From NCBI GenBank assembly GCA_001899635.1, contig MKVQ01000005.1:186001-250000 (forward strand): a stretch of DNA of 64,000 nucleotides, given 5' to 3'. Made by a program: the position numbers and the translations under genes. Source of the stretch: Myxococcales bacterium 68-20 (GTDB lineage Bacteria > Myxococcota_A > Polyangia > Polyangiales > Polyangiaceae). This document shows, one piece after another, positions 10,509-46,848 of this stretch. A model generated the notes under the pieces. It saw only the letters and a list, made by a program, of their open reading frames with translations. It had not been told where the DNA came from and searched no databases. The stretch's first letter is position 1. Each line of letters begins with the position of its first letter.

Positions 10509-10590
10509 CGAGACGAGCAAGCGCTGCGTGGGCGAGCGCCGCCTCGACGCCTCACGCGCGTGCTCCCCAATGCCATTCGTTCAAGCGAAT

Positions 10591-10680
10591 CGAGAGAGAT
10601 TCAACAGGAAGGCGGGGAGGCGGGAAGAGAGTTTGATCAATGAATTCTTCCCGTCTTCCCGCCTTCCTGTTTCTGTCTGC
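10591..10680. repeat. Dispersed palindromic repeat, uninterrupted copy
   Basis: A hairpin with about 24-base arms: CAGGAAGGCGGG... from 10605 is mirrored by ...CCCGCCTTCCTG ending at 10669, with only two imperfect positions, around a loop containing TTTGATCAATGAA. Flanking bases CGAGAGAGATTCAA (left) and TTTCTG (right) also belong to the unit, because a second copy at 46671 (left flank displaced to 44750-44763 by a group II intron) shares them. It lies between the regulator gene and the ABC ATPase, both minus strand, where it could act as a terminator. Confidence 0.8.
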
Positions 10681-10730
10681 ACCGAACGGTATTGCCCCCC
10701 ATGCTCGCGTCCGGAATCGCGGACGCGCGG

Positions 10731-43718: not shown

Positions 43719-44669
43719 TCAATCCCGCGTCGCGGCCGGGCTCACGTGGGCGGGAGGCACCGCACGGGCCTCTGCCTTGCCCTCGGAGATGTTGTCGAAG
43801 CGACGCGTGGTCGGGTACGCGAACCCCACGCTTTCGAGCTTCGAGAAGGCGTCGAGGACCTCCTCCCAGATCTCGGAGGCCGAGCTCCGGCGCAAGCGAG
43901 ACTTGCAGAGATAGCGCATCGTGAGGCGCACGCCGTTCTCGACGACGGTGGTCCAGACCGCCGGCGTGAGCTTGGGGAACTTGATGTGGAGCGTGTGGGC
44001 GGCCTGATCGACGCGCGCCTTCACCTCGTCGTCGATCGTCCGCGACTGGCGGACCAGGATCGCCTCGAGCGTCTGCTTCGCCGTTCGCCAGTCGCTCTCG
44101 AACGTCACCGTCAGCTCGAGCTCGTTCCAGATGTAACCGAACGCCTCGTCGTAGTTGGCGATCGTGTTCTTGAAGACGAAGCCGTTGGGGACGTGCAGGA
44201 TCCGACCGGTGCCCTGATCGGCGTGGACCCAGTTGCCGACTTCGAGCATCACGAAGCGGAGCGGCCGGATGTCGACGACGTCGCCGATCTGCGTGCCGAC
44301 CTGGATCCGATCGCCGACGCGGAAGGGACGCCGGAGGAGGATGAACAACCAACCGGCGATGTTCGTCAGCGGATCCTGAAGGGCGATCGCGATCCCCGCC
44401 GACAGGAGGCCGAAGTACGTGGCGATGCCGCTGATCCCCTGGATCCAGAGGCGTGCGACAGCGACGATCGCCACCGCGCCGAGCACGTAGCCACTGACTC
44501 GCGACATCTGGAAGCGGGCGGCCGAGTCATCGACGGTGCGCGCGACCAGCCGGCGGCTAAGCCTCCCGAGCACGAGCCAGAGCGCGATCACCGCGACGGT
44601 GCCGGCGATCCGCCCGAGCGTCTCTACTGGAATCCCGAGCGCCGCGGAGAGGCGATCCACGCTATCCAT
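43719..44669 (-). CDS. mscS: Small-conductance mechanosensitive channel, MscS family
   Basis: 316 residues. Two or three N-terminal hydrophobic helices, then the pore helix and beta domain signature GLLSAGIAIALQDPLTNIAG and RPFRVGDRIQVGTQIGDVVD followed by HVPNGFVFKNTIANY. The C-terminal part is a typical MscS alpha/beta vestibule. Releases solutes under hypo-osmotic shock. TATCCT (complement of 44679-44684) lies 9 bases before the ATG, so a short leader is likely. The group II intron starts its 3' end about 95 bases upstream. Confidence 0.92.
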   Translation of the reverse strand: MDSVDRLSAALGIPVETLGRIAGTVAVIALWLVLGRLSRRLVARTVDDSAARFQMSRVSGYVLGAVAIVAVARLWIQGISGIATYFGLLSAGIAIALQDPLTNIAGWLFILLRRPFRVGDRIQVGTQIGDVVDIRPLRFVMLEVGNWVHADQGTGRILHVPNGFVFKNTIANYDEAFGYIWNELELTVTFESDWRTAKQTLEAILVRQSRTIDDEVKARVDQAAHTLHIKFPKLTPAVWTTVVENGVRLTMRYLCKSRLRRSSASEIWEEVLDAFSKLESVGFAYPTTRRFDNISEGKAEARAVPPAHVSPAATRD

Positions 44670-44803
44670 CCAGCGCGCAGGATACTCGAATGGGCGGACG
44701 CCGATCGTAGGGACTGGATCACCGATCCAATGCAGTTCGGATGAACAGAGCGAGAAAATTCAAGTCGGGTAGCCCCGGGAGGTCGCCCACCCGGAGCCCC
44801 CAC

Positions 44804-44837
44804 AGATCCGGACGTGCGGAACTACCGCATCCGGCTC
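44804..44837 (-). other. Group II intron domain V
   Basis: 34 bases on the minus strand: GAGCCGGATGCGGTAG, then TTCCGCACGTCCGGATCT. The arms GAGCCGGATGCGG and CCGCACGTCCGGATCT pair with the two-base bulge expected of domain V, around a four-base loop. Forty bases later the intron ends. Confidence 0.9.
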
Positions 44838-44854
44838 CTCGTGCGGCAGGTTCG

Positions 44855-46204
44855 CTAGGCGCGGAGGGAACGCAGTTTCGTGACTGCGGGAGTCGGCAGC
44901 GGGTGGTGAGCTTCGAGCTTCCTCATCCGTGCCCAGGTCACCCGGGCCCGTTGCGACCGGCGGTTGAGCCACGATCGCCAGGTCCGGTAGACCGCCTTGC
45001 CGAAGCGCCAGAGTGCCGTCGCGTTGCCCACGACCCCGAAGTAATTGTAGTGCCCTCGGAGCTTGCGCGTGAGTACGGCGCATTGATCGGCGACGGGCGT
45101 GTGGCGATAGCGTCGGCACCAGTCTCCGATCCGCTTCACCGCCGCGCTGAAGCGGCTCTTCGCCGTCTTCAGCATGACCACCCAGTAGCCTTTCCCTGAC
45201 CGCGCCCAGTGGTGGGTGAATCCGAGGAAGTCGAAGCTGCTTGCTCCGCCGTTTCCGCCCTCGTCGTCCTTGTCAGACGTCGAGCTCGAGTGCGTGAAGC
45301 GTACGAGCTTCGTCTTCACCGGATGCAGCGTCAGCCCGTACTTGCCGAATCGCTTCGGCAGTACGTCCAGGACTTTGCGTGCATCATCTTCCCGCTTGAA
45401 GATGATGATGAAGTCGTCGGCGTAGCGGACCAGCTCAGCTCGGCCCTTCAGTCGCGGCTTCACCTCGCGCTCGAACCATCGGTCGAGCACTTCGTGCAGG
45501 TAGATGTTCGCCAGGATCGGCGAGATCACGCCGCCCTGTGGTGTCCCGGCTTCGGGGTGTTGGAGCTCGAGGCCCTCCATCACCCCGGCGTTCAGCCATT
45601 TCCCGATGTAACGGATCAGCGACCCGTCGCCTATCCGTCGGGCCAGCGCCTCCCGCAGGTGGGCGTGGTCCAGCGTGTCGAAGAAACGCTGGATGTCCAC
45701 CTCCAGGATCCATCCGCCGCGCATGCTCATCGTCGCTTCGCGCAACGCTTTCAGTGCATCATGCGTTGAGCGACCGGGGCGGAAGCCATACGAGCAGTCC
45801 AGAAACTCCTGCTCGTACACAGCCTCCAGCACCATCGCGACCGCGCGCTGCAGGATCTTGTCCTCGAAGGTTGGAATGCCGATTGGGCGCGTGCGCCCGT
45901 CGCTCTTCGGGATGTTGACTCTGCGGACCGGTGGGGCCCGATACGTCCCCGCCTTCGCCCGCTCGTAGAGCGAGCGAAGGTTCTTGTCCAGGTCGCGTGC
46001 GTAGTCGTCCGCTGAAACGCCGTCGACGCCCTTCGCCCCGTCCTTCCGGGTGCGTCGGTGCGCCTCCTTCAGCCAGTCGACGTCGATGTGATGCGCGAGC
46101 GTGCGCAGCGCCATGTCCGGCGCTTCTCTCGCCCGTTTCGCTATCCGTTCGAGTTTCGTTGAGACAGTTTGTGAGGGCGGTGCCTCTTCCATCTTTCCTG
46201 CCAA
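44855..46204 (-). CDS. ltrA: Group II intron-encoded reverse transcriptase/maturase
   Basis: 449 residues. Reverse transcriptase blocks are complete: RVNIPKSDGRTRPIGIPTFE, YGFRPGRSTHDALKAL, GWILEVDIQRFFDTLDH, GTPQGGVISPILANIYL and the catalytic RYADDFIII. The maturase X domain follows (RKLRGHYNYFGVVGN, WLNRRSQRARVTW). There is no C-terminal HNH endonuclease, so target cleavage would depend on replication forks or the hairpin target, as for bacterial class C introns. ATG at 46204; a short in-frame extension is not needed. Confidence 0.95.
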   Translation of the reverse strand: MAGKMEEAPPSQTVSTKLERIAKRAREAPDMALRTLAHHIDVDWLKEAHRRTRKDGAKGVDGVSADDYARDLDKNLRSLYERAKAGTYRAPPVRRVNIPKSDGRTRPIGIPTFEDKILQRAVAMVLEAVYEQEFLDCSYGFRPGRSTHDALKALREATMSMRGGWILEVDIQRFFDTLDHAHLREALARRIGDGSLIRYIGKWLNAGVMEGLELQHPEAGTPQGGVISPILANIYLHEVLDRWFEREVKPRLKGRAELVRYADDFIIIFKREDDARKVLDVLPKRFGKYGLTLHPVKTKLVRFTHSSSTSDKDDEGGNGGASSFDFLGFTHHWARSGKGYWVVMLKTAKSRFSAAVKRIGDWCRRYRHTPVADQCAVLTRKLRGHYNYFGVVGNATALWRFGKAVYRTWRSWLNRRSQRARVTWARMRKLEAHHPLPTPAVTKLRSLRA

Positions 46205-46670
46205 CGGTTCTGCTTCACGGCGCCGCCTTCCCTTCGGCGGGTCCCTCCGGAGAAGGTTCCCCGCGTTCTTCGGTACTACGCAGCGCTCCGACTTCCCGCC
46301 GACCGTCCTTTGGCGCTTCGTTGCCTTCGCACCTCAGTACCGCCCTCTCCGGCGGAGTCGTCGGGATCTCCCAAGTTCCTGAGGAGCCCTCGCATACGTG
46401 CCCCGCTCTATGACCCCGGTGGAGCTGCTCGCGCAGTGCTGCCTTCCGCCTTCCTGACGGCGTCGGCCTCCACGTATGGTTCTCGGAGCTCGATCACGCG
46501 GCCCACATGCTCGCTGTCTACGCTTCACCGCCGCGGTCACCCGCGTCGCTGCAAGACTCGCTTCCCGCTGTCCCGTGTGGGCTTTGTCGGGGTGACGTCC
46601 AGCGTCACGGGGCTCCGGGTGAGGTTTAGATCTTCGTGTTCACCTCCTCACTCGGGCTTGCTTGGCGCAC

Positions 46671-46740
46671 CAGGAAGACGAGAAGGCGGGAAGAGGCTTT
46701 GATCAATGAAGTCCTTCTCGTCTTCCCGCCTTCCTGTTTC
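46671..46740. repeat. Dispersed palindromic repeat, copy interrupted by the intron
   Basis: CAGGAAGACGAGAAGGCGGGAAGAG on the left is mirrored, with G-T and A-C exchanges, by CTTCTCGTCTTCCCGCCTTCCTG on the right around TTTGATCAATGAA. The first 13 bases of the unit (CGAGAAAATTCAA) were moved to 44751-44763 by the intron. Across the shared length it resembles the copy at 10591 at most positions. The arms are built of GAAGRCGR octamers. Confidence 0.85.
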
Positions 46741-46792
46741 TCTCCCTGACGCGGACGTCCTAGCTGAACGGCATTGGAGTACGACCGCAACC

Positions 46793-46828
46793 GTCGAGCC
46801 GGTCGAGCCGGTCGAGCCGGTCGAGCCG
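46793..46828. repeat. Four perfect tandem copies of GTCGAGCCG
   Basis: A 9-base unit repeated four times without error just before the candidate start codons of the lipoprotein gene. In the coding frame it would give Arg-Ala-Gly repeats, out of keeping with a signal peptide, so it is treated as non-coding leader. Copy number could vary between strains. Confidence 0.7.
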
Positions 46829-46848
46829 TGATGATACCGTCTTCCTCG

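Follow-up and report, generated by a model that had tools for sequence, protein, structure and literature searches.

The intron that interrupts a palindromic repeat in Myxococcales bacterium 68-20 raises the question of what set its place of insertion, the hairpin that the repeat can form or the base pairing between intron and exon. The window analysed is a stretch of 64,000 nucleotides (contig MKVQ01000005.1, positions 186,001 to 250,000), and its own numbering is used throughout (Table 1). Very probably, an IIB-like, endonuclease-less (En-less) group II retroelement was inserted once into one copy of a MITE-like element, at a site set by base pairing and with the hairpin probably incidental. 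The locus is best read as a tidy case of nested elements, in which targeting is, as far as the evidence goes, ordinary base pairing and not a new mode.

Table 1. Positions of the intron, its parts and pairing motifs, and the two copies of the host element in the window
Feature	Position	Strand	Sequence details and basis
Complete group II intron, 1907 nt	44764..46670	-	Starts GTGCG, ends CTACCCGAC; RF02005, RF00029, sequence, flank joining
Ribozyme core, domains I to IV (Rfam D1D4-6)	46404..46599	-	RF02005, 110.3 bits, the best domain I match
Domains V and VI	44764..44839	-	Domain V starts GAGCCGG (AGC triad); RF00029
Intron-encoded reverse transcriptase/maturase, 449 aa	44855..46204	-	YADD motif; TIGR04416, Pfam, translation
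EBS1, hairpin loop in domain I, intron position 215	46451..46456	-	CAGGAA; 6/6 with IBS1
EBS2 candidate, intron position 186	46480..46485	-	CGAGAA; 6/6 with IBS2
IBS1, closing six bases of the 5' exon; at the base of the 3' arm of the palindrome	46671..46676	-	TTCCTG
IBS2, palindrome's 3' arm, two bases above IBS1	46679..46684	-	TTCTCG
Occupied MITE-like element, first part: outer repeat, left arm, core palindrome to the insertion point	46671..46776	-	Outer repeat CAATGCCGTTCA
Occupied MITE-like element, remainder to the outer repeat	44728..44763	-	TTGAAT... to CGAACTGCATTG
Empty copy of the element in the window, 127 bp	10568..10694	-	

The ends that the initial annotation had given for the intron are correct, since the match to RF00029 covers all 77 model positions and stops exactly at 44764 (40.0 bits, equal to the gathering score), GTGCG stands at 46670 and the joined flanks agree. 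The element is intact and has what defines a group II retroelement, namely a 5' GTGYG, domain I, domains V and VI, a 3' end in AY and an uninterrupted RT/maturase ORF. The branch-point A is probably that of CTACCC in the domain VI region, as assigned by reading. The ORF reaches 368.8 bits with TIGR04416 (cut-off 300) and contains PF00078 (RVT_1), with PF08388 (GIIM) slightly below its cut-off (22.2 against 23 bits). An HNH endonuclease domain was absent from the maturase in searches with the TIGR04416 and Pfam profiles, in agreement with the original claim. One copy of the intron was found in the assembly, both by DNA search (40 of 121 first-look candidates scored) and by a protein search of the same genome with the RT, which gave a single match (20/20 candidates scored).

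Removal of the intron joins CTTCCTG to TTGAAT exactly as in the empty copies of the repeat; this had been proposed from the one uninterrupted copy in the window, and holds across the aligned empty copies. A search of the 11.9-Mb assembly (52 contigs) for the repeat unit returned 13 near-full core copies (E <= 1.3e-18), 12 empty and one occupied, and the pattern CTTCCTGTTGAATC with at most one mismatch has 15 genomic sites (8 exact) against 1 for its reversed control. The view of the target as a dispersed, mobile-looking palindrome with empty copies elsewhere is thus borne out by the genome search and by alignment of the elements. The extent first given to the repeat needs enlarging: a limit of 46740 takes in the core hairpin only, whereas the whole element measures about 140 bp and has outer inverted repeats that end at 46776 and 44728. 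One genome in which a single occupied copy stands beside many empty ones is a clean natural experiment, where the pairing rules can be read from the sequence.

In the aligned copies, an outer repeat like CAATGCCGTTCG precedes the left arm; the palindrome, rich in purines and built around ATTGATCAA, comes next, and TTGAATCTCTCTCGGTTCG leads on to the outer repeat CGAACGGCATTG. Core-type elements with correctly defined ends (n=7) measure 127-147 bp, and the family accordingly combines shortness and terminal inverted repeats with many copies (the 13 near-full cores). The repeat is called MITE-like because perfect direct repeats flank 2 of the 11 elements with defined ends, L006 (10 bp) and L182 (12 bp), the latter belonging to a second subfamily; real border pairs were matched by permuted ones in 1 of 5000 trials. 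The input to this test was 14 elements, three of which (L007, L011 and L026) have undefined ends, with L008, L009, L013 and L022 left out; for L004 the pattern placed the right end wrongly, which gave a score of 0, where its flanks agree by eye in 9/10 positions. The occupied element is without a flanking direct repeat. Sites of the form CVATGCCGTTCG number 72 against 11 for the reversed control, 16 of them being exact CAATGCCGTTCG, and most start with CG or CC, which is foreign to the element. Inspection of eight loci with such sites outside or beside core copies identified three as elements and five without a second end close by.

Elements of the second subfamily (L175, L176 and L182) have the same ends but another inner hairpin. 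This hairpin resembles GGGAACAGGGAACGGGGAA, and the elements lie at 1517-1765 in L175, around 1465 in L176 and around 1605 in L182, where the element directly adjoins one of the core type and carries the 12-bp direct repeat at its flanks. With a 136-bp element as query, 5 of 57 relatives gave any match (58 genomes including the bacterium's own), as did 0 of 11 genomes of the same genus. Among the exact CAATGCCGTTCG ends listed, no inverted pair enclosed a gap the size of a gene, as a parent transposon would. On contig 16, a pair of repeat arms separated by 1.4 kb was considered as the ends of such a transposon and rejected, the ORFs between them being unlike a transposase by reading alone. The family is described here as one of which no earlier account was met among the open-licence papers listed on myxobacterial repeats.

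Base pairing gives the first part of the answer to the question of placement. EBS1 pairs at all six positions with the CTTCCTG flank, a check that the initial annotation had left to be made, and the candidate EBS2 pairs at all six positions with the bases just above it in the arm. Moreover, both pairings covary with the exons among relatives of the intron. Across 33 introns including that of the window, EBS1-IBS1 pairing averages 5.36 of 6, as opposed to 3.17 +- 0.15 with permuted exons (reached in 0 of 2000); 28 introns score at least 5, and those below are L069, L091, L089, L105 and L115, with the minimum in L105 (2.0). EBS2-IBS2 pairing averages 4.93 in 30 introns against 4.19 +- 0.10 permuted (again 0 of 2000), with at least 5 in 20/30; here the best of three offsets was taken for real and permuted pairs alike, and the set omits L084, L115 and L038. 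EBS2 gives a weaker signal than EBS1, and its position shifts by some bases among the relatives. Both means are nearly unchanged once the window intron is set aside (5.34 for EBS1 and 4.90 for EBS2). The lineage set comprises 33 of 84 matches, kept if the model start was at most 3, the end at least 290 and the exon at least 45 nt, with L090 excluded as a copy of L041, and L039 and L139 excluded for short flanks; 13 of the 33 introns lack GTG at the model-predicted 5' end, and their junctions are less sure.

The 14-nt target that spans IBS2 and IBS1, TTCTCGTCTTCCTG, occurs exactly once in the 11.9 Mb, at the occupied copy. One mismatch admits 17 further sites, one being the other arm of the occupied copy, against 11 for the reversed pattern. 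In 14 aligned empty copies, IBS1 is perfect in nine and IBS2 in none, the best IBS2 reaching 5 of 6 (four copies). It had been suggested that each further copy of the repeat is a potential landing site: IBS1 is perfect in nine copies, but none of the 14 has a perfect IBS2 or is occupied, which leaves the suggestion weak. The proposed tie, by which the intron would spread as the repeat spreads, is possible but has no support, with one copy occupied and 0 of the 14 empty copies examined matching fully. It is improbable that an IIB-like lineage has begun to home to the MITE family as a platform scattered over the genome, with IBS1 provided by many copies and drift in IBS2 selecting the cognate one; if it had, spread of the MITE would seed future intron sites.

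The hairpin is the second possible determinant of the site. The stem at the window junction scores 60.7, where the local mean is 20.1 (P = 0 within its own upstream sequence), and ends exactly at the insertion junction. In 30 relatives the same test gives a mean P of 0.49, with P < 0.05 in 2/30 (L081 and L113, both P = 0); a wider stem setting gives P < 0.05 in 3/29, where L071 also has P = 0. The power of the test is middling, as judged from group IIC controls, four of which reach P = 0 and the other four 0.095, 0.26, 0.385 and 0.825. In a folding test on 29 relatives, junction windows did not differ from control windows (Wilcoxon P = 0.48), and strongly folded 60-nt exons occur in 3 of 32 relatives (L074, L110 and L075). 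From these 32, L076 and L115 were too short of flank for the stem test, and L076, L072 and L115 for the folding test. By eye, none of the other 32 exons of the lineage ends in the arm present at the window junction. The occupied hairpin is of no unusual stability, coming 12th among the 15 copies, and the single-stranded DNA folds of the two window copies are -15.8 (occupied) and -24.7 kcal/mol (empty). The hairpin is probably incidental to the choice of site.

A more moderate role, in which an IIB-like intron had its site choice aided by the hairpin, for example through single-strand extrusion that exposes IBS2, is unlikely. In the predicted fold of the occupied copy IBS2 is indeed unpaired in a bulge, a single case, and upstream secondary structure has been the subject of speculation for IIB introns beside attC sites, class E among them, in the part of PMC7923331 drawn on here. 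However, IBS1 is paired in the stem of that same fold, the occupied hairpin is among the less stable of its family, and the relatives are without hairpin enrichment.

The initial annotation had held that the endonuclease-less maturase and the hairpin target fit group IIC behaviour. Group IIC introns insert at terminators or attC sites, as stated in the section of PMC4424553 used here, and the available text of PMC7923331 gives them an EBS1-IBS1 pairing of 3-4 bp and a stem-loop upstream, and finds no evidence for an EBS2. The controls for this class were nine GsI-IIC-like loci, found via the sequence of the solved structure. Domain I of the window intron is of the D1D4-6 type, whereas eight of the nine control loci have D1D4-3 and the ninth (L190) matched no intron family. 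The D1D4-6 type also occurs in four comparison loci: L183 (a Halomonas plasmid), L041, L067 and L082. The domain V triad is AGC (GAGCCGG), as against CGC (CCGCCG) in the four IIC controls read. In an RT tree of 88 rows, the window protein falls, with support of 100/98, in a set of 32 rows from which the five IIC control rows are absent; these represent five of the nine control loci, LtrA is absent, probably through the length filter, and the deep part of the tree is limited by long branches. No T tract follows the window stem, and one is present in some form or nearly so in 6/8 controls whose junction was read.

A group IIC intron that recognises hairpins, and has here taken a mobile palindrome in place of a terminator or attC site, is thus a most improbable reading, for all that no endonuclease domain was found and a strong stem ends at the insertion point. 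Group IIC identity was rejected on the D1D4-6 domain I, the AGC triad, the 6-bp EBS1 together with EBS2, which depart from the 3-4 bp pairing of that class, and the lack of hairpin insertion as a trait of the lineage. Neither the IIC behaviour nor a hairpin target of the IIC style is upheld, the latter because insertion sites in the 30 relatives open to the test are not enriched for hairpins. The initial annotation had itself named an intron of the IIA/IIB type with a homing site unrelated to the hairpin as grounds for refutation, and this is largely what was found. A maturase without endonuclease and a hairpin at the junction are insufficient grounds for calling an intron IIC. As expected of IIB introns, EBS1 and EBS2 each pair with their IBS over about 6 bp, a feature also common to IIA introns; assignment to IIB would rest on the En-less IEP and on the relatives, with T as the first base of the 3' exon. 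One point counts against the IIB-like reading, namely that some introns with IEP types near class C (g6, U1 and U2) are also inserted after terminators, according to the portion of PMC8919778 consulted; the comparison made here took its references from GsI-IIC-like introns.

That the intron was carried here inside the element as MITE cargo, and not inserted on site, deserves hardly any credence: the direct-repeat borders of two family elements would suit it, but a single intron copy was found, the occupied element has no such border and 1.9 kb is, in our judgement, large for a 140-bp element.

For the IIB-like intron placed by base pairing, the course was very probably a single event of reverse splicing that put it into one MITE-like palindrome copy, within the 3' arm. 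The site is explained by the pairing of EBS1 CAGGAA with IBS1 TTCCTG and of EBS2 CGAGAA with IBS2 TTCTCG, although targeting as such cannot be shown from one event. Reverse splicing would take place at the DNA level, and a nascent strand at the replication fork would serve as primer, the route described for En-minus introns; the relevant extract of PMC4424553 names the replication fork as the source of the primer for En-less introns. Because the palindrome is apparently intergenic, it would offer a dispersed and tolerant landing place, of which the occupied copy matches both EBS1 and EBS2.

Each of the two flanking ORFs has, by reading, the element on its upstream side, and the insertion therefore probably disrupts no gene. 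An MscS-like gene (PF00924) starts at 44669 on the minus strand, and an ORF at 46831 on the plus strand has a lipoprotein-like start and no Pfam match. A role of the palindrome as transcription terminator at this locus was considered and is unlikely, given the absence of a T tract and its position upstream of both ORFs. A terminator scan found one site against 1.6 expected, away from the palindrome; it covered loops of 3-8 only and so is uninformative on the palindrome. A short tandem repeat (GGTCGAGCC) occupies 46792-46829, directly past the left end of the occupied element. Within 46677-46722, the proximal 3' arm CCTTCTCGTC is, by reading, the reverse complement of the distal part of the 5' arm and not of the part that faces it, an arrangement that is possibly the scar of a template switch in a quasi-palindrome.

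Among known systems, the window intron shares its D1D4-6 core and RT/maturase with En-less IIB-like bacterial introns, and the best plasmid match of the RT is in Halomonas sp. PA16-9 (54% RT identity). The relatives L067 and L082 have an AGC domain V like its own, and the EBS1 and EBS2 pairings run through the lineage; it differs from its D1D4-6 relatives in its host site, a MITE-like palindrome whose arm is absent from the other exons among the 33. With the group IIC introns B.h.I1, GsI-IIC and S.ma.I2 it has in common the lack of an endonuclease domain and a stem 5' of the junction, but they differ from it in the types of domains I and V, in EBS1 length and in EBS2. Additionally, IBS1 lies inside the stem in the window, whereas IIC controls such as L188 and L187 have a tail between the stem and the junction. 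REP elements, which serve as targets of insertion sequences, are likewise dispersed extragenic palindromes with a defined insertion point; however, as far as the material from PMC1525189 goes, that case concerns DNA transposons, with all type 1 IS copies in REPs, and the present one a retro-intron and one event. The 'MITEtron' of Thiomargarita is also a nesting of intron and MITE, but in the account taken from PMC4853749 the MITE sits inside a group I intron, and here a group II intron sits inside a MITE-like element. Among the open-licence papers listed, none was found to describe a MITE that harbours a group II intron.

Two observations concern relatives of the intron. Locus L041 (G026) looks identical to L090 (JAJZQG010000288.1), which comes from a MAG labelled Myxococcales. 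At 208-372, both show two exact direct repeats of CRISPR-like kind (37 nt, start spacing 74); the intron relative follows about 54 nt further downstream, and a degenerate third repeat begins just before the junction. Nearly identical intron proteins occur in L073 and L079, from MAGs labelled Phycisphaerales and Polyangiaceae, and this similarity reflects either a recent transfer or a binning error.
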